Assembly: GCA_904420095.1 (NCBI GenBank)
Contig: CAJFUB010000020.1
Location: 1 to 64,000, forward strand
Source: an uncultured Clostridia bacterium
Lineage (GTDB): Bacteria > Bacillota > Clostridia > UBA1212 > UBA1255
Length of the DNA stretch: 64,000 bases
Reading direction: 5' to 3'
The notes under the pieces were generated by a model that saw nothing but the letters and a program-made list of their open reading frames with translations, had not been told where the DNA came from and searched no databases. The position numbers and the translations under genes are program-made. Shown here one piece after another: positions 4,535 through 47,715 of this stretch. The first letter of the stretch is position 1, and every line of letters starts with the position of its first letter.

Positions 4535-5907
4535 TGGAGAGTATATCAGAACTGGTCCGCAGAGCCAGAGCCGCCCAGGCGGAATTTGAAAAAACGGCAA
4601 CGCAGGAAAGCGTAGACGCGATCGTGAAAGCCCTTGCGAAAACGATTTACGAGAACGCCGAGCCTTTGGCGAAGCTGGCGGCCGAGGAATCCGGCATGGG
4701 CCTGTATGAAGACAAGATCAATAAAAATAAAGGAAAAGCAAGAATCATCTGGAATTTTCTCAAAGATAAAAAATCCGTCGGCGTAATCAGCCGGGACGAC
4801 AGAACCTGCATTACGGAGGTTGCACGTCCGATGGGCGTTGTCGCCGCCATTACTCCTTGCACCAATCCCATCGTTACTCCCATGTGCAACGCGATGTATG
4901 CGATAAAAGGCAGGAACGCCATCATCCTCGCGCCGCATCCGCGCGCAAAAAAATGCGCGAAAGTCGTTACGGATCTATTTCGCAGGGAAATCGAAGCGCT
5001 CGGAGCGCCCGCCGATCTGGTGCTGCTGGTGGAAGAACCGTCTACGGCGCTTTCCGCAGAATTAATGAGCAAATGCGACGTCGTCGTAGCGACGGGCGGC
5101 ATGGGGATGGTAAAAGCGGCGTATTCCTCCGGCAAGCCGGCATACGGCGTGGGCGCGGGCAACGTGCAGTGTATTATAGACCGCGGCGTCGATTACAGAG
5201 AAGCCGCGCCGAAGATCATTGAAGGGCGCCGCTTCGACAACGGCATCATTTGCTCCGGCGAACAGACGATTATTGTTCCGAAAGAGGACTATGCGGAAAT
5301 CATAGAGATTTTCATTGAAAACGGATGCGCATATATCGAACGGCCGGAGGACGTCCGCAGGCTCAGGGACACGCTGTTTTCCGTTACGGAAACGGGCGGC
5401 TATGCCATGAACAAGAAGCTGGTCGGGCAGAGCGCCGCTTGCGTAGCGCAGGAGGCCGGGCTCGAGGTGCCGGCGGATACGAAGGTGCTTCTGGTCAGGG
5501 CAGACGGCAGCGGCAAAGACGACTGCCTGTCTAAAGAAAAAATGTGCCCTGTCATTTCCGCGTATGCGTACGATACCTGGGAAGACGCCGTGGCCGTAGC
5601 GCAGGCAAATCTCGACGTAGAGGGACGCGGCCATTCCATCGCGATCCATTCTCACAACAAAGAGCACATTGAATATGCTGCAAATCACGTTACGGTATGC
5701 CGCGTTCTCGTGAACCAGATCTGCTCCACGATGAACGGAGGCAGCTTCTTCAACAGCCTGACGCCGACCACAACGCTCGGCTGCGGCTCCTGGGGGAACA
5801 ATTCCATTTCGGAAAACTTCAGCTATAAGCATCTTATGAACATTACAAGAATCGCGTATGAGATCCCGGACGCCAAAGCGCCTTCGGACGAAGAAATTTT
5901 TCAGTAA
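4534..5907 (+). CDS. CoA-acylating aldehyde dehydrogenase (acetaldehyde-type)
   Basis: A 457-residue member of the EutE/AdhE-N/SauS class that oxidises an aldehyde with CoA and NAD(P)+ to the acyl-CoA. The catalytic cysteine is Cys240 in NGIICSGEQ, and the nucleotide-binding loop GVGAGNVQ is at about residues 205-212. The length fits stand-alone acylating enzymes. Acetaldehyde made by DeoC is the obvious substrate. Sulfoacetaldehyde dehydrogenases belong to the same class, so sequence alone does not fix the substrate. No microcompartment targeting peptide or shell gene is present. Confidence 0.85.
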   Translation: MESISELVRRARAAQAEFEKTATQESVDAIVKALAKTIYENAEPLAKLAAEESGMGLYEDKINKNKGKARIIWNFLKDKKSVGVISRDDRTCITEVARPMGVVAAITPCTNPIVTPMCNAMYAIKGRNAIILAPHPRAKKCAKVVTDLFRREIEALGAPADLVLLVEEPSTALSAELMSKCDVVVATGGMGMVKAAYSSGKPAYGVGAGNVQCIIDRGVDYREAAPKIIEGRRFDNGIICSGEQTIIVPKEDYAEIIEIFIENGCAYIERPEDVRRLRDTLFSVTETGGYAMNKKLVGQSAACVAQEAGLEVPADTKVLLVRADGSGKDDCLSKEKMCPVISAYAYDTWEDAVAVAQANLDVEGRGHSIAIHSHNKEHIEYAANHVTVCRVLVNQICSTMNGGSFFNSLTPTTTLGCGSWGNNSISENFSYKHLMNITRIAYEIPDAKAPSDEEIFQ

Positions 5908-5925
5908 AGGAGCGAAACGCCCATT

Positions 5926-7131
5926 ATGGATTTAATGGAATACAAGGCAAAAGAGCTTTTCTCTGCGGGCGGTCTTCCCGTGCAGAAATTCGCGCACATC
6001 GGAGAGGAGGCTCTCGCGCGCGGAGACGCGGAGCTGATCCGGGCGGCCGCAGAGCTTGCCTATCCGGTTGTCGTCAAAGCGCAGGTAATGACAGGCGGCC
6101 GCGGCAAAGCCGGCGGCATCAAATTTGCAGAGAATGAGACGGAGCTGGTAAAACGCACGCGGGAAATAATCGGCATGAATATCAAGGGGCACACGGTACA
6201 CAGCGTTATGATCGTGGAAAAGGCAGAGGTCATAAAGGAATTTTACCTTTCCATATTGCTGGACCGCATGACAAAGGGGCCTGTGATCATATTTTCTCCC
6301 CTGGGCGGCGTGGAAATCGAACAGGTTGCAAAAGAAACGCCGGAGATGATTTTTAAAACGCCGATCCATCCGTTCGGCGGGATTGAGGCCTACCATACGG
6401 CATATATCGCAGATAAAATAAGGCTTGTGTATCCGGAGTTCGGTATAGACCTTCAGAAGGAGCTCGGTATTCTGCTGCGGAATCTGTACGCGCTTTTTCT
6501 CAAGAGCGACTGCCTGCTTTGCGAGGTGAATCCGCTTGCGCTCTGCCGGAAGGACGGCGCGGCGCATCTGCTTGCGCTGGACGGAAAGGTTTCCGTAGAC
6601 GACTCCGCTGTGAAGCGTCAGCCGTGGCTTGCGGAGTATACCGCCGCCATGCCCAAGCACCCGCTGAGCAGGGAAGCGGAAAATTTCGGGTTTCTCTATA
6701 TTCCCTGTGAAGAGGATGGAGAGATCGCCGTTATGTCGAACGGCTCGGGCATGCTGATGAGCTGTATCGACCTGATCACGCGGGACGGGATGAGCGTCCG
6801 CGCCGTGCTCGACCTGGGAGGCGGAGCTACCGCGGAGCGGATTCAGGAGGCCGTTCGGATCATCCTGAGCGACGAACGGACGAGGCATTTGTTTATTAAT
6901 ATATTCGGCGGGATCACGCGGTGCGACGAGGTCGCCGGAGGAATCAGAAGAGCGTATGAGGCGGGACATCTGACGAAGCCTGTCATCCTCCGCTTCGAAG
7001 GAACAAACAAGGCAAGGGGACTCGAAATCATTTCCGGAATCCCCGGCGTTACTTACGCAGACAGCCTTCTGGAAGGCGTCGCAGTGCTCTCTGCAGAGAA
7101 AAACGGCAGCAAAGGAGGCGGGCGGAAATGA
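5926..7131 (+). CDS. ADP-forming acyl-CoA ligase, beta (SucC-like) subunit
   Basis: A 401-residue succinyl-CoA synthetase beta-like protein with an N-terminal ATP-grasp fold (residues 1 to about 220; VVKAQVMTGGRGKAGG motif) and a C-terminal ligase domain (NGSGMLMSCIDLI and LRFEGTNKARGL). With the following alpha subunit it would convert acyl-CoA, ADP and phosphate to free acid, CoA and ATP. It follows the acylating dehydrogenase directly, so acetyl-CoA to acetate with substrate-level ATP formation is the best inference; the canonical TCA enzyme is unlikely in this setting. Its stop overlaps the next start (ATGA). Confidence 0.85.
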   Translation: MDLMEYKAKELFSAGGLPVQKFAHIGEEALARGDAELIRAAAELAYPVVVKAQVMTGGRGKAGGIKFAENETELVKRTREIIGMNIKGHTVHSVMIVEKAEVIKEFYLSILLDRMTKGPVIIFSPLGGVEIEQVAKETPEMIFKTPIHPFGGIEAYHTAYIADKIRLVYPEFGIDLQKELGILLRNLYALFLKSDCLLCEVNPLALCRKDGAAHLLALDGKVSVDDSAVKRQPWLAEYTAAMPKHPLSREAENFGFLYIPCEEDGEIAVMSNGSGMLMSCIDLITRDGMSVRAVLDLGGGATAERIQEAVRIILSDERTRHLFINIFGGITRCDEVAGGIRRAYEAGHLTKPVILRFEGTNKARGLEIISGIPGVTYADSLLEGVAVLSAEKNGSKGGGRK

Positions 7132-8000
7132 GTATTTTAGTTGATAAGAACACGCGCCTGATTGTTCAGGGGATTACCGGCCGGGAGGGAACCTTCCATA
7201 CCGAGCAGATGCTGGAATACGGCACGAACGTCGTCGCCGGCGTCACTCCGGGGAAGGGCGGCCAAACGGTGCTCGGCGTCCCGGTATTCAACACGGTGCG
7301 TGAAGCGGCGGAGGAGACCGGGGCAAACGCGTCGGTGATTTTCGTCCCTGCCATGCATATGATGAGCGGCGCGCTGGAGGCGATCGACGCAGGGCTTCCG
7401 CTCGTCATTACGATTGCGGAGCATGTCCCGGTGCAGGACATGATGCGCGTTTATCATTACGGCCGCCTGAAAGGAACGCGCGTCATCGGGCCGAACTCGT
7501 TCGGCGTCATTTCCCCGGGAAAATCAAAGGCCGGCTTCATGGCGCATCGCATCTTCCTGCCGGGCCATGTCGGACTGATGTCCCGCTCGGCAACCAATTG
7601 CTACGAAACGGTATTTATGCTGACAAATGCCGGCATCGGGCAGTCTACCTGCGTCGGGATCGGCGGCGACATGATTGCCGGAAGCTCCTTTTCCGATCTT
7701 TTACCGCTGTTTGAAGAGGATCCGGAGACGAAGGCGATCGTCATGATCGGCGAGATCGGCGGAAATGAAGAAGAGCTGGCTGCCGCCTTGATGAAAGAAC
7801 GAATCTCAAAACCGGTCGTAGCGCTGATCGCAGGGAAAAACGCGCCGAAGGGCCGCTCCATGGGTCATGCGGGCGCGATCGTTTCTGCAGACGGGACGGG
7901 AAGCGCAGATTCCAAAATCAGGGCGCTTTCAGAAGCGGGCGCTGTCATTGCCGACAGCACGGCGGAAATTGTGTCCTGCCTGAAAAAGCTCATGGCCTAG
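7128..8000 (+). CDS. ADP-forming acyl-CoA ligase, alpha (SucD-like) subunit
   Basis: A 290-residue succinyl-CoA synthetase alpha-like protein. It has the CoA-binding Rossmann domain (IVQGITGREGTFHT at residues 12-25) and the phospho-histidine His247 in RSMGHAGAIV, matching the position in the E. coli enzyme. The pair is coupled by a 4-nt overlap. In Clostridia, similar pairs next to acylating aldehyde dehydrogenases conserve ATP from acyl-CoA; sulfoacetate-CoA ligases are also of this type. Substrate assignment here rests on context only. Confidence 0.87.
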   Translation: MSILVDKNTRLIVQGITGREGTFHTEQMLEYGTNVVAGVTPGKGGQTVLGVPVFNTVREAAEETGANASVIFVPAMHMMSGALEAIDAGLPLVITIAEHVPVQDMMRVYHYGRLKGTRVIGPNSFGVISPGKSKAGFMAHRIFLPGHVGLMSRSATNCYETVFMLTNAGIGQSTCVGIGGDMIAGSSFSDLLPLFEEDPETKAIVMIGEIGGNEEELAAALMKERISKPVVALIAGKNAPKGRSMGHAGAIVSADGTGSADSKIRALSEAGAVIADSTAEIVSCLKKLMA

Positions 8001-35719: not shown

Positions 35720-35842
35720 CAGCTTGGCAAAATGAAATATTAATGCTACAATATGCATGCTATTTAAAGCTTCGAAGCAGGGAAACGCGGCCGTGGAAAA
35801 CAAATGCAGCGATTTCTTCCTGCAGCGCCGGATGGAGGCGAA

Positions 35843-36943
35843 ATGGTGGAAGCAGAGAAAACAGAAACAGCCGGAGATCTTTTCCTGAAGAGGTATGATC
35901 TTCATTTTTTAGAGGCCTACAGCAGTGAAGAGCTGTTTTATAAACGTTATTATGAGCTTCGTTCGCAGCCGGAGGCTCTGCGTTCATTTTTGGCTCCATA
36001 TCGCGTGTCGGAATTTTGGCTTCCGGAAATCAACAGCGAGCATCAGAAGGCAAATCAGGTTCATACGATTTTCGATTATTTTGATGATGATATTATGGTA
36101 ACGAAGCATACCCGCTTTTATCCTCTGTTTATTCATAAGCATGTTTTTTTCGAAATTATGGTAGTGATCAAGGGTAGCTGTGAAAACACGGTGGGCGGGC
36201 GGCGCCTGCGGATGACTTCGGGAGACATCTGTATCATCCCGCCGGGAGAAATTCACACCATCGGCATTTTTGATGACAGCATTGCGATCAATATTCTGAT
36301 TAAGAGGGAAACCTTCGACGATGCGTTTTTCTCGTTACTGCCCCAAGAGCACTTTTTAACAGATTTTTTCAGAAAGAATCTCTACCTTGACGAGCACATT
36401 CCCGATAATTATGTACTAATCCATATAGAAGATGATCTTCCGGCAGAGACTGCAATCTGCGCGCTGATTTATGAGGATTTGCTGAGGCACAGAGGCATGG
36501 AGCAGAAGGCAAACGCACTTTTAAAGAAAAATTTGGTGCTGACAATTTTAAATTATTTTGCGTGCTACCGGAACGAAAACGGGAATATGGTAAAGGTCAG
36601 CAGCGGAAACCCGGAGAAAATGAACGAGATTCTGAAATATATCTATGACCGGCACGCTACTGCGTCTTTGGAGGAGGTGGCGGCCCATTTACATTATTCA
36701 CCGCAGCATCTCAGCAAGCTGATTCTTGAAAGCACGGGGTTTTCCTTTATTCGCATCCTTCAAAAGGCAAAAATCGCCCGGGCGTGCTTCCTGCTGGCCA
36801 CCACAAAAATGAAAATCTGTGATATTCCCGGATCTGTGGGGTATGACAGTCTGCTGTATTTCAATCGTATATTTAAAAAAGAAATGGGCGTTACGCCCAG
36901 CCGGTACAGAAGCCTGTACGTAAATCATATTCCGCGGCAGTAG
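35843..36943 (+). CDS. AraC-family transcriptional regulator
   Basis: About 366 residues. An N-terminal cupin-like sensor spans roughly residues 85-190 (HKHVFFEIMVVIKG, SGDICIIPPGEIHTIG) and a C-terminal double helix-turn-helix of AraC type occupies the last ~100 residues (LEEVAAHLHYSPQHLSKLI and GYDSLLYFNRIFKKEMGVTPSRYR). The ATG at 35843 has GGAGG 4 nt upstream; an in-frame ATG at 35804 is also possible. It precedes the surface carbohydrate locus, and the poor -35 box ahead of 37105 suggests activation by this protein. Confidence 0.88.
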   Translation: MVEAEKTETAGDLFLKRYDLHFLEAYSSEELFYKRYYELRSQPEALRSFLAPYRVSEFWLPEINSEHQKANQVHTIFDYFDDDIMVTKHTRFYPLFIHKHVFFEIMVVIKGSCENTVGGRRLRMTSGDICIIPPGEIHTIGIFDDSIAINILIKRETFDDAFFSLLPQEHFLTDFFRKNLYLDEHIPDNYVLIHIEDDLPAETAICALIYEDLLRHRGMEQKANALLKKNLVLTILNYFACYRNENGNMVKVSSGNPEKMNEILKYIYDRHATASLEEVAAHLHYSPQHLSKLILESTGFSFIRILQKAKIARACFLLATTKMKICDIPGSVGYDSLLYFNRIFKKEMGVTPSRYRSLYVNHIPRQ

Positions 36944-37063
36944 CCACTACAGGGAAAAACCTATAATCTTTCGGGGTTTGTATATAGTTTTTTCATATAA
37001 ATCTTAAGAAATGTATGTGTTTTGCGCCGGATATGTGACTATCTGTGAATTTATTTCCCACTT

Positions 37064-37069
37064 TATAAT
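37064..37069 (+). promoter_or_regulatory. Probable -10 box of an activator-dependent promoter
   Basis: TATAAT at 37064-37069 lies 36 nt before the start of the first surface gene, but the expected -35 position (ATCTGT) does not match consensus. A promoter of this kind commonly needs an activator, here plausibly the adjacent AraC protein. Confidence 0.45.
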
Positions 37070-37104
37070 ATAAAATAGCTTGCACTTGATTAGGAGGTTA
37101 TTTT

Positions 37105-38262
37105 ATGCAAAAGAAGTGGTTTTTTATTTTAACGGCTATGATTGCTGCGGTCCTTTGCGTACAGCTTTTTGCAGTCAATGCTGCGACCTTTACTTATGAG
37201 GAGACGTATGAGGACTATGATCTCGAAACGACCATGGACGACATGTACATGTCCTTCGAGTGGACCAAACTATTCGGTTCGGGAAATGCAGTGGTGCAGG
37301 GAGAGGAAAATAAATATCTGAACATCAGCGGATATTTCGCCATGGAATATGCGACCGCTCTGGATGAAAATGTCGATGCTTACAGTATTTCCTGTGATAT
37401 GCGGGTATTGGAGAACGGCGACGGTATCGGAATGTTTCTGCGCTCCGGCAACATGCTCTATAAAGACAACGTCGCCTGGCATCATATGGCAAACCCCTAC
37501 ATGCTGCCCATGCATTACTATGAGTGGGATTGGTATGCGGAAAATGGCGGCACGAAGGGTTCCTCCGGAATGGGCTCGTCCGGTATCGTGATTATGCCGC
37601 AACTCCAGGAGGGCACAAACGGAGTCATTAAAATTAATTTTAAAAGTCATGAAGAGGACGGCCTCAATGTCGGAAATATAAGCTATTCGTTTGATTCGCC
37701 AGTTCCGGTTTCGGAATTTTTCAAGATTACCGCGGAAGAACGTGATTCCGAAATCCGGATTTCCGTCAATTCCGAACTGCTGGCGACGATTACGTTTTCC
37801 GAGGAGGGTGTTTATGAGGATGACGTTTTTTATGATACCCCGGCAGATTTCAAAGAGGTATATTACAAAAACGCTGTGTTAAAGGATGCTGCCGGCAATG
37901 AAGTGCTCAGCCTCAGCAACGCGAGAATTGCCGTGGATGGGAAGTTTGCGTTTGCCTCAAGAAACGGCGCTTTTGATTTGGACAATTTCAAGGCGGACTA
38001 TATTTATGATGAGGCCGTGGAGGCCACGCCGGAAAACACCCCGTCGGATGCTTCGAATGCGACGCCTGAAGAAACGGCTTCTTTAGCGCCGATCCAGACC
38101 ACCGGGCCTTCCGAAGAAAGCAAGGGTCCGTCCGCAACGGATAACGGCACGGAAGACGGCGCGTCCCGCTCTTACGTATGGCTGATTATTGTAATTGCCG
38201 TTGCGGTATTGGCAGCCGTTGTCGTGGTTGTCATTATACGGAGCCGGAAGAAATCTGCGTAA
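37105..38262 (+). CDS. Membrane-anchored extracellular jelly-roll-like protein (paralogue 1)
   Basis: A 385-residue protein with a signal peptide (about 1-29, cleavage near VNAA), a ~280-residue beta-rich domain of concanavalin-like type, a Thr/Ser/Pro/Glu-rich stalk (about 308-350) and a C-terminal membrane segment with the basic tail RSRKKSA. It shares with the protein at 41914 the motif YYExDxYxENGG...GxGxSGI and the FSExGxY...YYKxAVL block. A surface carbohydrate-binding role is inferred; no catalytic residues are apparent. GGAGG precedes the ATG. Confidence 0.75.
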   Translation: MQKKWFFILTAMIAAVLCVQLFAVNAATFTYEETYEDYDLETTMDDMYMSFEWTKLFGSGNAVVQGEENKYLNISGYFAMEYATALDENVDAYSISCDMRVLENGDGIGMFLRSGNMLYKDNVAWHHMANPYMLPMHYYEWDWYAENGGTKGSSGMGSSGIVIMPQLQEGTNGVIKINFKSHEEDGLNVGNISYSFDSPVPVSEFFKITAEERDSEIRISVNSELLATITFSEEGVYEDDVFYDTPADFKEVYYKNAVLKDAAGNEVLSLSNARIAVDGKFAFASRNGAFDLDNFKADYIYDEAVEATPENTPSDASNATPEETASLAPIQTTGPSEESKGPSATDNGTEDGASRSYVWLIIVIAVAVLAAVVVVVIIRSRKKSA

Positions 38263-38280
38263 GAAAGGAATCAGCAACAT

Positions 38281-39777
38281 ATGCAAAAAACGAGGTTTCT
38301 CCACTTTTTGGACGAATTTGGGAAACGCTTTGCCGCTTTGCTGCTGGGGCTGTTTTTTCTGACGGCTTATGCCTGCGGGGAACGCAATGAAACTGATTTT
38401 TCCTCCTCCGGCCTTCCAACGGGACAGATCGATCCGAGTGCGACGATAGATCCATCCGTAGCGTCGGATGATCTGGAGGCAACGATCCGGCTTCTGGTCA
38501 AGAACGATCTTCGGGAAAAGGGCGACAATCAGGCCATGCGGCAGTGCATTGCGAATTATGTCAGTACCTTTCAGATGTATTATCCCAATGTTTCCGTTCA
38601 GATCCGGTATGTAGATGAAATGAATCGTGAGCTGAAGGAAGACGCGGATGTGTTTCTGCTGACTGCGGAGGATTCAACTCGCTACATGGCTGACGAAAAG
38701 TATGACGGAACCGGATATGCCCGACAGTTTCTGGATCTCTCCGATTATTATGACCGCTTCCATACGGAGCGCGACCAGCTTCTGCTTCCTGCAATGAAGC
38801 TCGGTCAGGTCGGCGGATCCCAGCAATGGGTACCGTTCCAATATGACAGAGCCGTCATATATGCGGATAAAAGCGTATTTGAAGAGGCCGGAGCGGAAAT
38901 CCCATCCGCCGACTGGACGTATGAAGATTTTACAAGACTGGTAAGCCAGCTGACCTTTGTTGGAGAAGACGGTCGATATACGGGACTTTATCTGGCCTAT
39001 CATCAGGCGTTTGTATGGAAACTGTTTGTCCGAGGCGCCGGCGGAGACTGGTTTGATTCGGAGCAAAATCAGATTGTACTGACAGAAGGAAAGACGTATG
39101 AAGGCTTTCGCATGATGTTTTCTATGCTTGAGTCAGGGACCGCGCGCGGTAAGGATTTTAATCAAAACGGATCTGCCGCCTCCGAATCGGCTATGGCGAT
39201 TGCATTTGCCTGTCAGCCTGAGCGCGACGGCGTTTATCAGGAATCTCTGGAACGTATGGAGGCAAATCCGGCAAAAAATACGGAGACCTTGATGGAGGAG
39301 GGAAATCTGGTCATGCTGCCGCTGCCCGTCTTCCCTGCCGGGGAGGTTGGAATTTCCAATACCGCCTTCTGCAAAGGCTTTGCCGTATCCATAGACAGCG
39401 GACAGAAGGAGGCGGCAGCAGCGTTTGCCTTGTTTTCCCTCACGCTGCCGGGACAACAGATCCTGAATCAGTATTTTGGAGGAATTCCGGTAAACCGCCG
39501 CGCCTTTTCGTTAGATTTTTGGAAAAAAGGTCTGCTGGCAGGAAGCAATGCAGATACCGTTCTGATCCGCATCGACGCGGATGAACGAGATGATTTCCTG
39601 GAGGCATTTGAAAGTGCGAGATATTTATACGACGGCGTCCTGCGGACGCGGACGCTGTTTGCTTCTCTGCTGTACCGGGACTATGCCACGGTACAGAAAC
39701 GGAGACCGGAAAGCTATCGGCCCACACTGGAGACATTGGAACGGCAGCTTAACGCTACAATTCGGGATTATACATAG
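38281..39777 (+). CDS. Extracellular solute-binding protein-like lipoprotein
   Basis: A 498-residue protein with an N-terminal signal and a lipobox-like LTAYAC near residue 37, followed by a Ser-rich linker and a family-1 solute-binding fold (WVPFQYDRAVIYADKSVFEEAGAEIPSADWTYEDFTRL; later GFAVSIDSGQKEAAAAFALF). Such proteins deliver sugars to ABC permeases, but no permease or ATPase gene is in this locus. It may use a permease elsewhere or act as a surface sensor. GAAAGGAA upstream supports the ATG. Confidence 0.78.
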   Translation: MQKTRFLHFLDEFGKRFAALLLGLFFLTAYACGERNETDFSSSGLPTGQIDPSATIDPSVASDDLEATIRLLVKNDLREKGDNQAMRQCIANYVSTFQMYYPNVSVQIRYVDEMNRELKEDADVFLLTAEDSTRYMADEKYDGTGYARQFLDLSDYYDRFHTERDQLLLPAMKLGQVGGSQQWVPFQYDRAVIYADKSVFEEAGAEIPSADWTYEDFTRLVSQLTFVGEDGRYTGLYLAYHQAFVWKLFVRGAGGDWFDSEQNQIVLTEGKTYEGFRMMFSMLESGTARGKDFNQNGSAASESAMAIAFACQPERDGVYQESLERMEANPAKNTETLMEEGNLVMLPLPVFPAGEVGISNTAFCKGFAVSIDSGQKEAAAAFALFSLTLPGQQILNQYFGGIPVNRRAFSLDFWKKGLLAGSNADTVLIRIDADERDDFLEAFESARYLYDGVLRTRTLFASLLYRDYATVQKRRPESYRPTLETLERQLNATIRDYT

Positions 39778-39797
39778 AGAAAGGAGGAGAAACGGGA

Positions 39798-41861
39798 ATG
39801 AAAAAAGTTATGATGATTCTTCTTGCCCAGACCATCCTTCTTTCGTTTTGCCTGGCCGGGCCTGCTCCGCAGGGAAGCGCCTCGCAGCAGACGCCGGGTG
39901 TGTACGATACCTGGGTTGCTACGGACGGCTTGGACCGCAGTCTGCCAAGCGCGGAGGAAGCGGGCGATACCCGTACGGACAAATATGTCGGATTGTTTTA
40001 TTTCATCTGCCATGACGATCCTCAAAACGGCGGCAGCGGTACGCTGATAGATAATTCAAAGGTGTTTGCGGAGGGCGGCCTGTTTGCCGTCTGGGAAATG
40101 CTTCTGCAGGATCAGACGCATGTGTGGGGCGAGCCGTATTTCGGATATTACGTGAATACGGATGAATGGGTCTACCGCAAACACGCGGCGATGTTTTCCG
40201 CTTTAAATATCGACTTCATTTTTGTAGACCTGTCCAATAGCTTCCTGCACGGAGAAGGATTATTTATCCTGTTTGAAACATGGCATAAAATTCGTGAAGA
40301 AGGCGGAACGACACCGCAGATCGCACTCTTTTGCGGCTGGAGGCCTAGCACGGCGCGTTTTACCTTGGATGCTGTCTGGGAACGGATCTATCAAAATGAA
40401 GCGTATCGGGATCTGTTTTTTGAATGGGAGGGCAAACCGCTCTTTTTAGGCAGTCCGGCGGATTTAACGCAGGAATATCTGGACTTTTTTACGATTCGGG
40501 AATCCTGGGTAGGGACCGGTTCAAGCTCGGAGTACGTCTATACGGGTGTCAATCAGTGGAACTGGTTCGATCCCTATCCGCAGACGGTAGGGAAAAACGC
40601 GCGCGGGGAAAACGAGCACATTTCCGTATCTGCGGCAGGTCATGCGAATTCAGACACCAGCAGAAGCTATGTTGGCGACGGCGGAGCCCTTTCAGCGCAA
40701 AATGCAGATTTCGGATTCTCTTTGACGACTACCGGGGAAGGGCTGTTTTTTCAGCAGCAGTGGGAGTATGCGCTGCAGGTGGATCCGATGGTTATTACTA
40801 TTACGGGATGGAACGAATTCTCGGTGGGCGCACAGTCCAACCTTGGAGAAGGGCAGGTCATGGCCGGAACCTATCACGTAAACTTCAGTGATCCGCAGTA
40901 TGACCGGCATTACATTGATCTTTTTAATACGGAATTCAGCCGCGACATCGAACCGATCAATGGATTTTTCAATGATAATTATTATTATCAGATGGCGTCA
41001 TATATTCGAAAATTCAAAGGAACGGCGGCGGTTCCCCGTGCTGAGGGTGGCCGGGACATCGATCTGTCTGCGCCCTATGAGGAACAGTGGGCGGACGTAG
41101 GACCTCTTTTTTGCGATACGGTGGGAGACATCGCCCATCGGGACAGTCCTTCTCTGGAAAATGTCTATCGCTATGTCAATACGACGGGCCGAAACGATAT
41201 TGTTTCCGTAAAGGTTTCTAAAGAAAACGGATATACGGCGTTTCTGATTACCTGCGCGGAGGAGCTTGTATACGGTGCAGAAGGTGTGGCCGGCAGGGCG
41301 GGTATTGATTTCAAGGAACTGGAAGACGGCGCCTTGCAGACCTTCGTGAATGCATCGGAAGGAGACGTGTCCGAAGCAGGTTCCAATTGGATGAATTTGC
41401 TGATCGACAGCGATCAGAATGCGGATACCGGATGGGAAGGATATGACTATATCCTAAACCGCAGCCGGGACGGCAAGACGGTTTCGGTAGAAAGATTCCT
41501 GTATAATTCCTGGGAGTTTGAACGCGTAGGCCAGGCGGAATATGTTATTGATGGAGAAAACCTTGTCATTCGGGTTGCGGATTCTCTGGTCGGATTGGAG
41601 GGACGTGATCAGTTTGATTTTAAAGCGGCGGATAATTCTGTTGCCGACGGAGATGTGCTGAAGTTTATGACGTTAGGCGATGCGGCGCCGGATAACCGAT
41701 TTAACTTTCGCTATATCAAACAAAGCGGAGGCTCCGGCGGGCATGGGGAAGGCGTTTCTGCCGCGGTGTTCAAAGGGATCGGTATTTGCGCCGGGATATT
41801 GATCCTTGCGGGATTGTGCGTGGTCGCGGTAAAAGCTTGCGTGGCCAAGCGAAAAAAATAA
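39798..41861 (+). CDS. Membrane-anchored TIM-barrel glycosidase-like protein with CBM9-like domain
   Basis: A 687-residue protein: signal peptide (1-25), a TIM-barrel-like domain (about 50-400) with GEPYFGYYVNTDEWVYRKH and the ITGWNEFSVGAQ motif reminiscent of GH99/WbsX-like enzymes, a CBM9/DOMON-like domain (about 440-620; LLIDSDQNADTGWEGYDYIL) and a C-terminal membrane segment ending CVAKRKK. An endo-acting enzyme on a surface or host glycan is inferred. The catalytic acids cannot be assigned with confidence. It is a strong candidate for biochemical study. Confidence 0.72.
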   Translation: MKKVMMILLAQTILLSFCLAGPAPQGSASQQTPGVYDTWVATDGLDRSLPSAEEAGDTRTDKYVGLFYFICHDDPQNGGSGTLIDNSKVFAEGGLFAVWEMLLQDQTHVWGEPYFGYYVNTDEWVYRKHAAMFSALNIDFIFVDLSNSFLHGEGLFILFETWHKIREEGGTTPQIALFCGWRPSTARFTLDAVWERIYQNEAYRDLFFEWEGKPLFLGSPADLTQEYLDFFTIRESWVGTGSSSEYVYTGVNQWNWFDPYPQTVGKNARGENEHISVSAAGHANSDTSRSYVGDGGALSAQNADFGFSLTTTGEGLFFQQQWEYALQVDPMVITITGWNEFSVGAQSNLGEGQVMAGTYHVNFSDPQYDRHYIDLFNTEFSRDIEPINGFFNDNYYYQMASYIRKFKGTAAVPRAEGGRDIDLSAPYEEQWADVGPLFCDTVGDIAHRDSPSLENVYRYVNTTGRNDIVSVKVSKENGYTAFLITCAEELVYGAEGVAGRAGIDFKELEDGALQTFVNASEGDVSEAGSNWMNLLIDSDQNADTGWEGYDYILNRSRDGKTVSVERFLYNSWEFERVGQAEYVIDGENLVIRVADSLVGLEGRDQFDFKAADNSVADGDVLKFMTLGDAAPDNRFNFRYIKQSGGSGGHGEGVSAAVFKGIGICAGILILAGLCVVAVKACVAKRKK

Positions 41862-41913
41862 GTTATTTTGCATAAAGCAAGAAGACAATATATTTAGAAA
41901 TGGAGGAGTTTGT

Positions 41914-43044
41914 ATGTGTGGAAGGTGTAGTTGGAAAAAGCTGGCTTTTGTAATGGCAGCAGTTCTTTTGCTGGTAACCGGTTGTATGGTACCGGCAATG
42001 GCTTCGGAGGTGCCGGAAGAATGGGGACTTCCGATAACGACGTATGAATATGATTTCTCAAAAGATACGTTTAATACGGATCTGGGGCATGCCGGCGTCG
42101 AATCGGACTTCGAGACAGACTGGAGCTGTGAATTTCCGATGGGCTTCGGAGGAGCTATCGGCTCAGAGGAAGACAGAGGAAATTTCTTTGCTTCCATGAC
42201 GTTTTTCGGCCTGAAATATAATCAGGTGATGGAGACCGCGTATCGATTTGCCCTCGATATGAAATATGATCGCGGCCCGTACGGCGGCTTTGCGGTACGC
42301 TGCGGAGTACCCGTCAAACTGACGGTGGGCACTCCCTGGACGATCAACTATTATGAATTGGATCGCTATCAGGAAAACGGCGGCGCGAATGCAGATACCG
42401 GTATAGGCCCCAGTGGAATTTATGTATTCCCTACAGCCGAGAATCAGATCCGGATTGCGATTAAAACCATAGAGACAGACGGCTCTTATCTGGCAGAAGA
42501 ACAATTTAATATTGACATGGGATACGATGTGGCGGGACGCTTCATCCGTTATACGGTGCTGGATACGGGAAGCGAACTTTCCGTGTATGCCGGCAGCGAT
42601 CTGGTTGTCAGAATTGCCTTTTCTGATGCGGGCACGTATGACGTCTTTGCCGAGGACAAGGATGAGGAATATTATAAGACGGCGGTTTTGTACAATGCTG
42701 ACGGAACGGAAATCGGAAGCGTTGACGGAAACGCCAGAATCGCGGTAAAGAGCGGCATCGCCCTGATGCAGCGGGGAGACGTTCCGGGCGGTATTTCCTA
42801 TGACAATATTCTCATAGAAACTTATGAACCGGAGCAGACGCCACCGGAGGAGGAAACACCGGATCTTCCGGATGATCCGGTGCCAAGTGTCCCGACGGAT
42901 CCCGAGCCGAATACGCCTACGGGGGAATCCGGAATGCTCGTTTTTGCAGTGGGAGTCATTTTGCTGGCCGCCCTGGCGCTGCATAGCAGAGCGCGGCTTG
43001 CCATGAGGCAGAAAGGACGCGCAGAAGAGGAGCAGAATACCTAA
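41914..43044 (+). CDS. Membrane-anchored extracellular jelly-roll-like protein (paralogue 2)
   Basis: A 376-residue paralogue of the protein at 37105, with the same order: signal peptide (1-31), beta-rich domain, a Pro/Glu/Asp/Thr-rich stalk (about 305-332) and a C-terminal membrane segment with basic tail. Shared blocks include YYELDRYQENGG, GPSGI and EEYYKTAVLYNADG. The two differ elsewhere, suggesting an old duplication with different ligands. GGAGGAG precedes the ATG. Confidence 0.75.
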   Translation: MCGRCSWKKLAFVMAAVLLLVTGCMVPAMASEVPEEWGLPITTYEYDFSKDTFNTDLGHAGVESDFETDWSCEFPMGFGGAIGSEEDRGNFFASMTFFGLKYNQVMETAYRFALDMKYDRGPYGGFAVRCGVPVKLTVGTPWTINYYELDRYQENGGANADTGIGPSGIYVFPTAENQIRIAIKTIETDGSYLAEEQFNIDMGYDVAGRFIRYTVLDTGSELSVYAGSDLVVRIAFSDAGTYDVFAEDKDEEYYKTAVLYNADGTEIGSVDGNARIAVKSGIALMQRGDVPGGISYDNILIETYEPEQTPPEEETPDLPDDPVPSVPTDPEPNTPTGESGMLVFAVGVILLAALALHSRARLAMRQKGRAEEEQNT

Positions 43045-43057
43045 ACAGGAGGGCAGT

Positions 43058-44764
43058 ATGCACAAAATTACTTCGATCCGCATAGCCGGTACGGATATCG
43101 GCCAATACACGATCCTTTACGCGTCGGACAGTCATCCCGCGGAGATTAATGCGGCCAAAGAGCTACAGCGTTATATATATAACAGCACCGGCGTCTTGCT
43201 TTCGATGTCTGAAGACGGTACGCCCGGCCGGGAAAACGCTCCCGAAATCTGTATCGGCGGTACGAACCGGAACGAGCCCGAGACATTTGACGGACAAGAG
43301 GAAGCTTTTCATATTTATTATAAGGCGCCGCGGCTTTATATTGCCGGCGGCGGCGCGAGAGGCACGCTTTACGGGGTTTATGCATTTTTGGAAACCTATC
43401 TGGGATGGCGTTGGTTCGCGCCGGACACGGAGAAATGCGTGCTCAGCGGCACGGTTGAAATCCCGGCGGACTGTAATTTGTATTGCCGCCCTGCTTTGGA
43501 GTACAGAGATGTGTATTGGTTCAGTGCTTTTGACACTCCCTGGGCGGTGAAAATGAAGCTGAATGCATCGGGAGACCATCGAAAATTAGGTCCCGAATAC
43601 GGAGGTGGAATCGGCTATGGCGGTCCGAGATTTGTTCATACCTTTTCTGATTTTATGCCGTTGTCAGAATATTTTCAGGAACATCCCGAATATTATTCTC
43701 TGCGCGGCGGCGCCCGATGCGGAGAATATCTGTATACCCAGCTCTGTCTGACGAATCCGGACGTATTGCGGATCATTACGGAGAAAATACTGGCTTATAT
43801 GGAGGTGCATCCGGATACGCGCATTATTTCTGTTTCTCAGGATGACAGTTATGTGGGGGACAGCTATTGCCACTGTGCCGAATGCGAAAAAATCCATCGG
43901 GAAGAAGGATCGCCTATGGGCTCGCTTCTGCGGTTTGTCAATGCAATTGCGGAAACCGTAAAAATACGATATCCGCATTTAAGCATCGATACATTAGCGT
44001 ATCAGCATACCTTTGAACCGCCGCTTCATACGGTACCGCGCGACAATGTAATCATCCGGCTGTGCACCTGGAATCCGATTCTTTCCCAAAAGCATATCGA
44101 AAGGCGGAACATCCGGGAAGCCCTGACGCGCTGGAAGGCAGTATGCAACCGGATTTATATCTGGGACTACACTACAAATTTCAGCGATTACCTGGCAACT
44201 TTCCCCAATTTTGCAAACTTACAGCCTAATGTGAGACTGTTTGCGGACAATCACGTAAAAGGTATTTTTGCGCAGGGAAATTATCAGTCTGTGAGCGGAG
44301 AGTTTGGGGAGCTGCGCGCCTACCTGCTGGCCCGACTGCTCTGGGAGCCTGAGATGGAGCCGGATGCTTACTATGGGCATATGGATGCGTTTTTAGAAGG
44401 CTATTATGGGAAGGGTTGGCGTTATATCAGAAACTACATCGATTATGTCCAGGGAATTGTTTCGGGTTCTTCCGTGAGCAATCGGGGGACTCCGACGGAA
44501 ATTTTGCCGCCGGAGCGGTTTGACCTGAAGCTGGCAAAGTCATGGTGGGACCAGGCGGAGGCTATGGCGGATTCACCGCAGGATCGGGCGCATATTGGAA
44601 AATCAAGGCTGCAGCTTCTGCATTGGGAATTGTTCCGTGACGGTCACACCGACGAGAAGGACGAGAAGGCGCAGGCCTTTTATGCGCTTCTGAAAAAGCA
44701 CGGGATCACTCATCTGAATGAAGGCGCGGCGGTTCCGGTTCCTTCCTGCGGCGCGGAGCAGTAA
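43058..44764 (+). CDS. DUF4838 glycosidase-like protein
   Basis: A 568-residue protein without a signal peptide. The N-terminal ~120 residues form an alpha-beta domain as in GH20b/GH67 N-termini (HPAEINAAKELQRYI, RGTLYGVYAFLETYLGWRWFAPD), and the following barrel-like part carries the DUF4838 pattern with SVSQDDSYVGDSYCHCAECEKI. The Cys cluster may bind metal. It is cytoplasmic by prediction, so it would act on imported fragments, which conflicts with the absence of a transporter in the locus. GGAGG precedes the ATG, 13 nt after the previous gene. Confidence 0.8.
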   Translation: MHKITSIRIAGTDIGQYTILYASDSHPAEINAAKELQRYIYNSTGVLLSMSEDGTPGRENAPEICIGGTNRNEPETFDGQEEAFHIYYKAPRLYIAGGGARGTLYGVYAFLETYLGWRWFAPDTEKCVLSGTVEIPADCNLYCRPALEYRDVYWFSAFDTPWAVKMKLNASGDHRKLGPEYGGGIGYGGPRFVHTFSDFMPLSEYFQEHPEYYSLRGGARCGEYLYTQLCLTNPDVLRIITEKILAYMEVHPDTRIISVSQDDSYVGDSYCHCAECEKIHREEGSPMGSLLRFVNAIAETVKIRYPHLSIDTLAYQHTFEPPLHTVPRDNVIIRLCTWNPILSQKHIERRNIREALTRWKAVCNRIYIWDYTTNFSDYLATFPNFANLQPNVRLFADNHVKGIFAQGNYQSVSGEFGELRAYLLARLLWEPEMEPDAYYGHMDAFLEGYYGKGWRYIRNYIDYVQGIVSGSSVSNRGTPTEILPPERFDLKLAKSWWDQAEAMADSPQDRAHIGKSRLQLLHWELFRDGHTDEKDEKAQAFYALLKKHGITHLNEGAAVPVPSCGAEQ

Positions 44765-44793
44765 GAGCGCGCGGCCTTCAGGAAAAACGGCGA

Positions 44794-44826
44794 CAGCGGC
44801 AGGGGCGGTATCAGCCTCTGCCGCTG
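44794..44826 (+). terminator. Terminator of the surface carbohydrate locus
   Basis: A GC-rich hairpin with a 9-bp stem (CAGCGGCAG 44794-44802 with CTGCCGCTG 44818-44826) is followed by CGTTTATTCTGTT. The T tract is imperfect, but the position right after the last gene fits. Confidence 0.65.
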
Positions 44827-45804: not shown

Positions 45805-46578
45805 TCATTCGTTAAAATATTGTATTCGGAGCTGATCGGAAATTAATGCAATCAGTTCTTTGACGCAGATCGTGTAATTTGATGCGTCGACGTCGTAGCC
45901 CAGTATGGTGCGGAGGATATATTCTTTCCCGCAGGCATTGTTTACATGGGTAACGGCTCGGGCGATTGCACGCTCTATGTGTCGGACATTCGTGTCGAAT
46001 TCCTCTGCTAGCTTTGCATACAGGCGGGACGAAATGTCGGGGAGCTTGCTTTTGCTCAGTGTAGTATGGATTACGGCGCTTTTTAAATAATGATAACCGG
46101 CAAAATGTGCCGGTAATTTTAATTTGTGGAAAAGTTCGCTGAGGATTCTGGATAATTCGGTTTTGGACGGGCGCTCCGGAGCTTCTTCTGCTTCACGGCT
46201 GCGGACCATGTGAAGCGTATCGTAAAGTACGCGCGGATTATCTAAATTCTGCATAAACAGCTGTGCGCCTTCGCGGATCGCCTGCGGCATATAGGCCTCT
46301 CCTTCTTTGCTGGATGCTGTAGTAATGACTTTCACTCTGTTCGATGCATTCCGGCAGAGCTTACGGATAATGGCGTTCATGCTCTCGTGGTCGAGAGACA
46401 GGTCTGAAATCAAAACATCCGGCGACAGTCGTTCGCATAATTCCATGATATCTGTCGTATATTTCGAAGAAGCAATCATGCTTACATCCTCAAACGAAGC
46501 GATATTATTTGCGATTTTCTGTAAATATTCGTCGTCGCCGATCGCAGCGATAACCCTCATTGCACTTGGAAGCGCCAC
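45805..46578 (-). CDS. Divergent Spo0A-like regulator
   Basis: A 257-residue protein with Spo0A architecture: receiver-like domain (about 8-125), linker, and a Spo0A_C DNA-binding domain (about 145-250; LPAHFAGYHYLKSAV). The phospho-acceptor is plausible (Asp59) with Asp15-Asp16, but the invariant receiver lysine is replaced (FMQNLD where Spo0A has VRKPIS). The recognition segment reads RHIERAIARAVTHVN. GTG is preferred since AAAGGA is 8 nt upstream; an ATG 9 nt earlier abuts the site. It is divergent from the canonical spo0A next door. Confidence 0.8.
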   Translation of the reverse strand: MALPSAMRVIAAIGDDEYLQKIANNIASFEDVSMIASSKYTTDIMELCERLSPDVLISDLSLDHESMNAIIRKLCRNASNRVKVITTASSKEGEAYMPQAIREGAQLFMQNLDNPRVLYDTLHMVRSREAEEAPERPSKTELSRILSELFHKLKLPAHFAGYHYLKSAVIHTTLSKSKLPDISSRLYAKLAEEFDTNVRHIERAIARAVTHVNNACGKEYILRTILGYDVDASNYTICVKELIALISDQLRIQYFNE

Positions 46579-46615
46579 TGTTACCATCCTTTCAGTTATT
46601 TTTTTACGGGACAAA

Positions 46616-46644
46616 ATGATAGCATGAAATTCGAAAAAAGTCAA
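46616..46644 (-). promoter_or_regulatory. Promoter of the divergent Spo0A-like gene
   Basis: On the minus strand TTGACT (46639-46644), a 17-nt spacer and TATCAT (46616-46621). The spacer contains TTCGAA, which resembles part of a 0A box (TGTCGAA), so control by Spo0A is possible. Confidence 0.55.
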
Positions 46645-46817: not shown

Positions 46818-46905
46818 TTACTCGGTAATACGAAGAAGGACAATGCAGCACGCCGACGTTACAAAATAGACATATTTCAATTTACGAAAGAGAAAGGTGA
46901 TTGCT

Positions 46906-47715
46906 GTGAGAAGAGAAAAGTATTCTATTTTTGTCGTGGACGGGGATGTCGGCTTCGCGGATGAGCTCGGGAGGCGGATCCTTGCAAGAAGCGATATGGA
47001 TTTGTGCGGAAAGGCGTACAGCGGCGATGTCGTACTGCCTATTGTAAAGGAGAAAAGACCGGATATTATTATCATGGACCTTACTCTGCCTGCACTAGAC
47101 GGAATCAGCGTGATTCGGATGCTTCAGAAGGAGCTGACGTACAGGCCGATCATCATTATTACATCCGCTTATTCCAACGACATGCAGCGATATCTTATCA
47201 ATGATATTCCCAATGCCTATTTTGTACGGAAACCGATTTCTTTCGAAAATTTACTGGACCGAGCGTCGGAGCTTGTACAGGCCGCGTCCGGATTTTATGC
47301 TAAAGCAGCCGGTGAGAATGTCGAGGCAGAACGTGCCTTTTATAGAATTCTGCGTTACAACAGCGCGGATTCTACATTTAAGAGGATTACCAGTCTTCTG
47401 CATGATCTTGGCGTTCCGGCACACCTCAGCGGATATGGATATCTTCGGGATGCAGTCTGCATGGTGATCGAGAACCCCATATTAATCAATAATATGACGA
47501 AGCAGGTATATCCCGCGCTTGCCGCAAGAAGCGGCAAAACGCCGGCAAGCGTTGAAAAAGCCATCCGGACCGCCGTAGAAGTATCCTGGAGCAGGGGAAG
47601 AGCCGAAATCCTGGAAGAGGTCTTCGGCTTTACGGTCAATTCACAAAAAGGAAAACCCACCAACACGGAATATATTGCCATGCTGGCGGATCGTTACAAT
47701 GTCTGGATGAAATAA
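46906..47715 (+). CDS. spo0A: Stage 0 sporulation protein A (Spo0A)
   Basis: A 269-residue response regulator. The receiver domain has VVDGD near the start, phospho-acceptor Asp58 in IIIMDLTLP and the conserved Lys in FVRKPIS. The C-terminal Spo0A domain shows LGVPAHLSGYGYLRDAV and ASVEKAIRTAVEVSWSRG. GTG at 46906 is preferred, with AGAAAGG 8 nt upstream. It is the master switch for sporulation. It converges with asnS at a 15-nt gap. Confidence 0.92.
   Translation: MRREKYSIFVVDGDVGFADELGRRILARSDMDLCGKAYSGDVVLPIVKEKRPDIIIMDLTLPALDGISVIRMLQKELTYRPIIIITSAYSNDMQRYLINDIPNAYFVRKPISFENLLDRASELVQAASGFYAKAAGENVEAERAFYRILRYNSADSTFKRITSLLHDLGVPAHLSGYGYLRDAVCMVIENPILINNMTKQVYPALAARSGKTPASVEKAIRTAVEVSWSRGRAEILEEVFGFTVNSQKGKPTNTEYIAMLADRYNVWMK

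Follow-up and report, generated by a model that had tools for sequence, protein, structure and literature searches.

The window, the whole 64,000-nucleotide stretch of DNA analysed here (contig C20 of a 2.56 Mb assembly in 50 contigs), harbours at positions 35843 to 44826 an operon that is real, conserved, and unusual. The gene for an AraC-family regulator is followed by those for a stalked surface protein (JR1), a solute-binding lipoprotein (SBP), an enzyme-like barrel protein (TIM), a paralogue of the first protein (JR2), and a protein with a DUF4838 domain. It is proposed, with a probability of about 0.5, that together they form an AraC-controlled, membrane-tethered unit for the capture and cleavage of a glycan, with the permease encoded elsewhere and final trimming in the cytoplasm. 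The AraC regulator would control a unit at the surface of the Gram-positive cell, where the stalked JR proteins may hold the polymer and the anchored GH99-like TIM protein with its CBM9-like domain, for which the fold and the conserved acids are observed, is predicted to cut it. The SBP, present one-to-one with TIM, would catch the freed oligosaccharide at the site of cleavage and could deliver it to an ABC permease whose genes lie elsewhere, with a CUT1-like set on contig C39 as the candidate; inside the cell, the DUF4838/GH163-type enzyme would trim the imported product. More tentatively, the operon may represent an undescribed Gram-positive surface glycan machine in which a GH99-related hydrolase and an SBP are tethered side by side, sometimes as one protein by way of a two-helix hairpin, and are combined with paired stalked lectin-like proteins, no dedicated permease, and a hydrolase family that has expanded massively and is practically unclassified. 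The layout is probably a new arrangement of surface glycan harvesting and, if this is true, single-membrane gut bacteria can couple polymer cleavage to capture by physically joining a hydrolase to a binding protein.

Organisation and genomic setting of the operon

The regulator gene (35843..36943, + strand) encodes a protein in which a cupin-type AraC_binding domain and an HTH_18 domain both score above the Pfam cut-off. Its start is most likely at 35843, because a GGAGG ribosome-binding site is found there and none at the in-frame ATG at 35804. A gap of 161 bp follows (36944..37104, +), which probably contains the operon promoter. The five downstream genes, on the same strand, are separated by 13-52 bp and are each preceded by a purine-rich ribosome-binding site, and the operon closes with a terminator-like hairpin with a 13-bp stem (44794-44826, +). 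Coordinates, ribosome-binding sites, and terminator thus agree with the six genes as the earlier note on this DNA had placed them, including the AraC start, and its proposal that every extracellular part is tethered by a membrane helix or a lipid is supported. That note had missed the GH99-like nature of TIM, its CBM9-like domain and the huge expansion of its family, as well as the role of the SBP as a dedicated partner of TIM and the status of the window locus as a diverged second copy.

Housekeeping genes lie on both sides, encoding ribosomal proteins upstream and a Spo0A-type regulator, a histidine kinase, and RecJ downstream, so the operon looks like an accessory unit set between them. The downstream regulator (45805-46644, - strand), just 3' of the operon, belongs to the response regulators and carries the C-terminal domain of Spo0A; another one resembling it, on the opposite strand (46897-47715), was seen in the list of open reading frames only. 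AraC regulators resembling that of the window adjoin several other TIM or JR genes (L126, L124, L150, and others), which suggests a family of parallel loci.

Pairing of the SBP with the TIM protein

The SBP gene (38281..39777, +) encodes a CUT1-type lipoprotein that matches SBP_bac_8 (33.4 bits, the cut-off being 27) and the CUT1 fold and in which the GGIP and RDD motifs are conserved; it belongs to a subfamily that is linked or fused to TIM. The earlier note had made its reading depend on the genes occurring together in other genomes, and they do: the order SBP-TIM, usually followed by JR, on one strand is found in the window, on contig C10 of the same genome, and in eight further genomes of the family (G001, G003, G005, G007, G008, G010, G013, and G015), with gaps of -59 to 52 bp, and the two proteins are fused in two genomes of a sister family. 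In G011, the SBP and TIM genes abut. In 31 genomes of the order, every SBP match with E below 1e-30 is linked to TIM; the fragmented genome G001 holds a second, partial SBP fragment, detected at weaker E or by profile only, whose genomic position was not placed. The subfamily occurs in 9 of 391 sampled genomes of the class, all in two families of the order, and on the tree the SBP-linked TIM proteins require one change (support 91/90).

The fusions amount to two loci in each of the sister-family genomes. Three are proteins of 1100-1126 aa (G019:C30, G019:C136, and G021:C18) and the other (G021:C181) is partial, lying only partly on its contig. They consist of a signal peptide, barrel, CBM9 domain, helix, short basic loop, helix, and SBP, a layout in which the helix pair would place both the enzyme and the SBP outside the cell. 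That SBP and TIM work together is well supported by these genomic data, since the two are fused in the sister family and share a conserved operon, the fusion being the strongest evidence. A literature search that covered few subscription journals yielded no publication describing an SBP-glycosidase fusion or the TIM family.

The genome contains ten BPD_transp_1 matches; none (PF00528) is on C20 or C10, and no linked ABC permease was found near the window locus or the C10 locus, nor beside the other TIM-linked loci examined. Of the components of a CUT1 importer, the operon therefore has the SBP_bac_8 protein and lacks the two linked permeases. The CUT1-like set on C39 comes with its own two SBPs. 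The lack of a permease beside TIM-linked loci, the permanent joining of SBP and enzyme in four genes, and the restriction of the SBP subfamily to TIM-linked settings would also fit an SBP that has given up import and become a module with which the surface enzyme binds glycan, the products diffusing away or using unrelated transporters. Such a change of role is a serious possibility but a rather unlikely one: the CUT1 fold match and the GGIP and RDD motifs have been kept, ABC systems commonly share components that are encoded at a distance, and the DUF4838 enzyme, having no signal peptide, presupposes that some compound enters the cell. Capture followed by uptake through a distant permease is therefore the preferred reading.

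Orphan SBPs also occur elsewhere in the genome, as contig C8 carries two tandem lipoprotein SBPs (L185, 8485-9918 and 10122-11516) that are 25-30% identical to the window SBP, with no PF00528 match on that contig. In G003, the SBP-TIM pair is flanked by CotH-kinase proteins (L139, 10686-13892 on the - strand and 5408-7351 on the + strand), one of which contains RCC1 repeats, and in G005 two large proteins without Pfam matches are encoded directly upstream of SBP-TIM-JR (L133, 12056-13939 and 14776-17079).

The GH99-related family of TIM proteins

The TIM gene (39798..41861, +) encodes a signal peptide, a GH99/GH71-like barrel (residues ~58-411), a CBM9-like domain (~412-650), and a C-terminal membrane helix. 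No Pfam family, Glyco_hydro_99 included, was matched by the window protein, and 2 of 24 relatives matched Glyco_hydro_99 weakly (best 8.3e-6). A profile built from the 24 relatives matched GH99 endo-alpha-mannosidase at an E value of 2.5e-7, and an AlphaFold model of middling quality (mean pLDDT 68.6) aligned with GH99 at a Z score of 15.4 (rmsd 3.8 over 242 aligned residues) and with GH71 at about 14, its C-terminal part resembling a CBM9 module (Z 10.8). Profile and model thus both identify a GH99-type (beta/alpha)8 barrel. Searched against the PDB as single sequences, the window TIM and DUF4838 proteins gave chance matches only.

The first glutamate of the NEWHEG motif (BxGH99 E333) corresponds to TIM E340 and is invariant, whereas the second (BxGH99 E336) is replaced by Val in the window protein and by Ala in 23 of the 24 rows; because of this replacement, TIM is GH99-related and not a GH99 member as judged by the paired glutamates. 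With BtGH99, BxGH99, and human MANEA it therefore shares the barrel and the glutamate of the WNE/FNE sequence, and differs from them in the Val or Ala at the second position, in the added CBM9-like domain and C-terminal helix, and in that most members of the family score below the Pfam GH99 threshold. Among 70 TIM family members, no full-length row lacks D122, D139, D144, E340, D383, or R382, and E273, D374, E379, and E385 are invariant or almost so.

The family occupies 22 candidate places in the 2.56 Mb genome, rises to as many as about 45 per genome in the order, and is hardly covered by Pfam; it would be a large hydrolase family of ruminant-gut Clostridia that is still uncharacterised. Its named relatives are mostly metagenome-assembled genomes from ruminant and other gut samples. 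Nothing relevant to a GH99-like expansion in the rumen was found in the literature, again with few subscription journals covered.

Judged by its sequence, the window locus is a fast-evolving, diverged second copy, and the canonical SBP-TIM-JR-JR operon is that on C10. The branch leading to the window TIM has a length of 1.27, compared with 0.18 for its C10 paralogue, and near-invariant positions have changed (W71C, E320Q, and R345A), so that the protein could have lost or altered its activity. These two features are what would be expected if the window copy, as a duplicate of the C10 locus, were decaying or had become pseudo-enzymatic, its enzyme now only binding glycan. However, all genes are open, tightly spaced, and equipped with good ribosome-binding sites, the candidate catalytic acids (D122, D139, D144, E273, E340, D374, E379, D383, and E385) are intact, and two genes have been gained and none lost, and decay of this kind is accordingly deemed improbable. 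A diverged locus that still captures and cleaves glycan remains the favoured interpretation.

Stalked JR proteins

JR1 (37105..38262, +) and JR2 (41914..43044, +) share the same layout: a signal peptide is followed by a beta-rich domain, in which the motif YEWDWYxENGG contains an E-x-D, and a stalk rich in Pro and Thr then leads to a C-terminal membrane helix that ends in a basic tail. They are 28% identical over 312 aa (E 2e-22) and hence paralogues. The genome encodes about ten full-length JR paralogues, short matches to query residues of about 290-384, i.e., stalk and helix, having been left out of the count, and about nine of the ten adjoin a TIM, SBP, DUF4838, or JR gene; the chance estimate for this adjacency, 5e-14, is rough, as it ignores gene duplication in blocks.

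When these proteins were first described as two paralogous, stalked, membrane-anchored jelly-roll proteins, the paralogy, the stalk, and the anchor were correctly recognised, while the jelly-roll fold could not be confirmed. Neither JR1 nor JR2 reaches the cut-off of any Pfam family. PF06439 was matched weakly (0.03) by 1 of 19 JR members, and the JR profile matched a triple-PF06439 protein at 1.3e-4 over short pieces only; it matched neither of two strong PF06439 proteins, in a comparison whose profile was too narrow for a fair test. An AlphaFold model of the JR domain built from the two window copies only (pLDDT 38) was unfit for a fold search. A concanavalin-like fold is plausible on these data, and weakly supported.

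Paired, stalked, and anchored lectin-like proteins with no linked permease might also be regarded as surface proteins for adhesion to, or sensing of, host or plant surfaces and not for nutrition. This is very improbable, given that hydrolase-type proteins are linked to them, that rhamnosidase-type genes recur beside TIM paralogues, and that the cytoplasmic tails of the JR anchors consist of few basic residues and so contain no signalling domain. Holding of a polymer for cleavage is the role proposed here for the JR proteins.

The DUF4838 protein and the composition of the operon

The last gene (43058..44764, +) starts at its own ribosome-binding site and encodes a GH163-type protein that lacks a signal peptide and is predicted to be cytoplasmic; the C40 and C2 paralogues have hydrophobic, lipoprotein-like leaders. 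Its DUF4838 domain scores 313.8 bits against a Pfam cut-off of 26.6, and a protein of this type has been filed as GH163 (PMC9870897). A profile of three DUF4838 proteins matched only the N-terminal domains of GH115, GH67, and GH84 enzymes, with no GH163 structure found in that search. Compared with the GH163/DUF4838 endo-beta-N-acetylglucosaminidase, the window protein, a predicted enzyme, shares a DUF4838 domain far above the cut-off but has no signal peptide and is placed behind a JR gene.

The latter position is typical of its subclade, whose genes lie directly behind a JR gene at five of six places (the window, C40, C2, G019:C78, and G021:C84, the exception being G014:C78), whereas more distant DUF4838 genes are not beside JR. 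Given this JR-DUF4838 linkage and the SBP-TIM-JR linkage elsewhere, the window operon seems to combine two modules that have merged, SBP-TIM-JR and JR-DUF4838. One genome belonging to a different family in the class, G037, has about ten DUF4838 matches of the distant kind (L165-L177).

Candidate substrates and relationship to known systems

The substrate is likely to be a plant or other gut glycan. In the genome under study, 5 of 14 PF17389 genes lie <=3 kb from a TIM gene (P about 7e-4). PF17389 is also found beside TIM in G004, G012, G013, and G015, where it was read directly, and in G010, where it was inferred from gene size and order, and GH106 together with PF17389 adjoins TIM in Pedobacter (two species) and Ferruginibacter. 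Rhamnose as a constituent is a hint only, because PF17389 is not specific for rhamnose and the link with these rhamnosidase-type genes concerns TIM paralogues and one genus and has no counterpart at the window locus. The alternative would be N-glycans or mannans, which are the substrates of the GH99 founders; the founding activity of GH163 falls in the same group (PMC10154615).

Two candidate neighbours were discarded: a 1063-aa protein in G007, taken for a glycosidase, proved to be an isoleucyl/valyl-type tRNA synthetase, and a presumed rhamnose catabolic set beside TIM on C48 consists, as regards its kinase and isomerase, of xylulokinase and xylose isomerase.

The nearest named concept for the window operon is the gpPUL, whose definition requires a carbohydrate transport system (PMC5320581). 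Both unite a regulator, here of the AraC type, a secreted or anchored carbohydrate enzyme, here a putative one, and a carbohydrate-binding SBP in one locus; the place of the polysaccharide-degrading enzyme may be taken by the GH99-like protein and the DUF4838 protein, which were recognised by fold and profile and whose activity is predicted. In contrast to a gpPUL, the window locus has the SBP only and no linked transport system, its type of enzyme and SBP form a fixed pair that is fused in sister genomes, and it has an extra pair of stalked JR proteins. The suggestion that it is a Gram-positive counterpart of a polysaccharide utilisation locus (PUL) consequently holds for the regulator and the SBP, may hold for the enzyme-like proteins, and fails for the transport system. 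None of the six window proteins matched the SusC or SusD families in Pfam, and the organism, unlike the owners of Bacteroidota PULs, is a single-membrane cell with no SusC/SusD here. Large genes before TIM in Bacteroidota were considered as SusC/SusD and rejected for three loci, where Pfam identified GH106 and PF17389; a true SusC/SusD pair adjoins a TIM relative only in Dyadobacter arcticus (L056).
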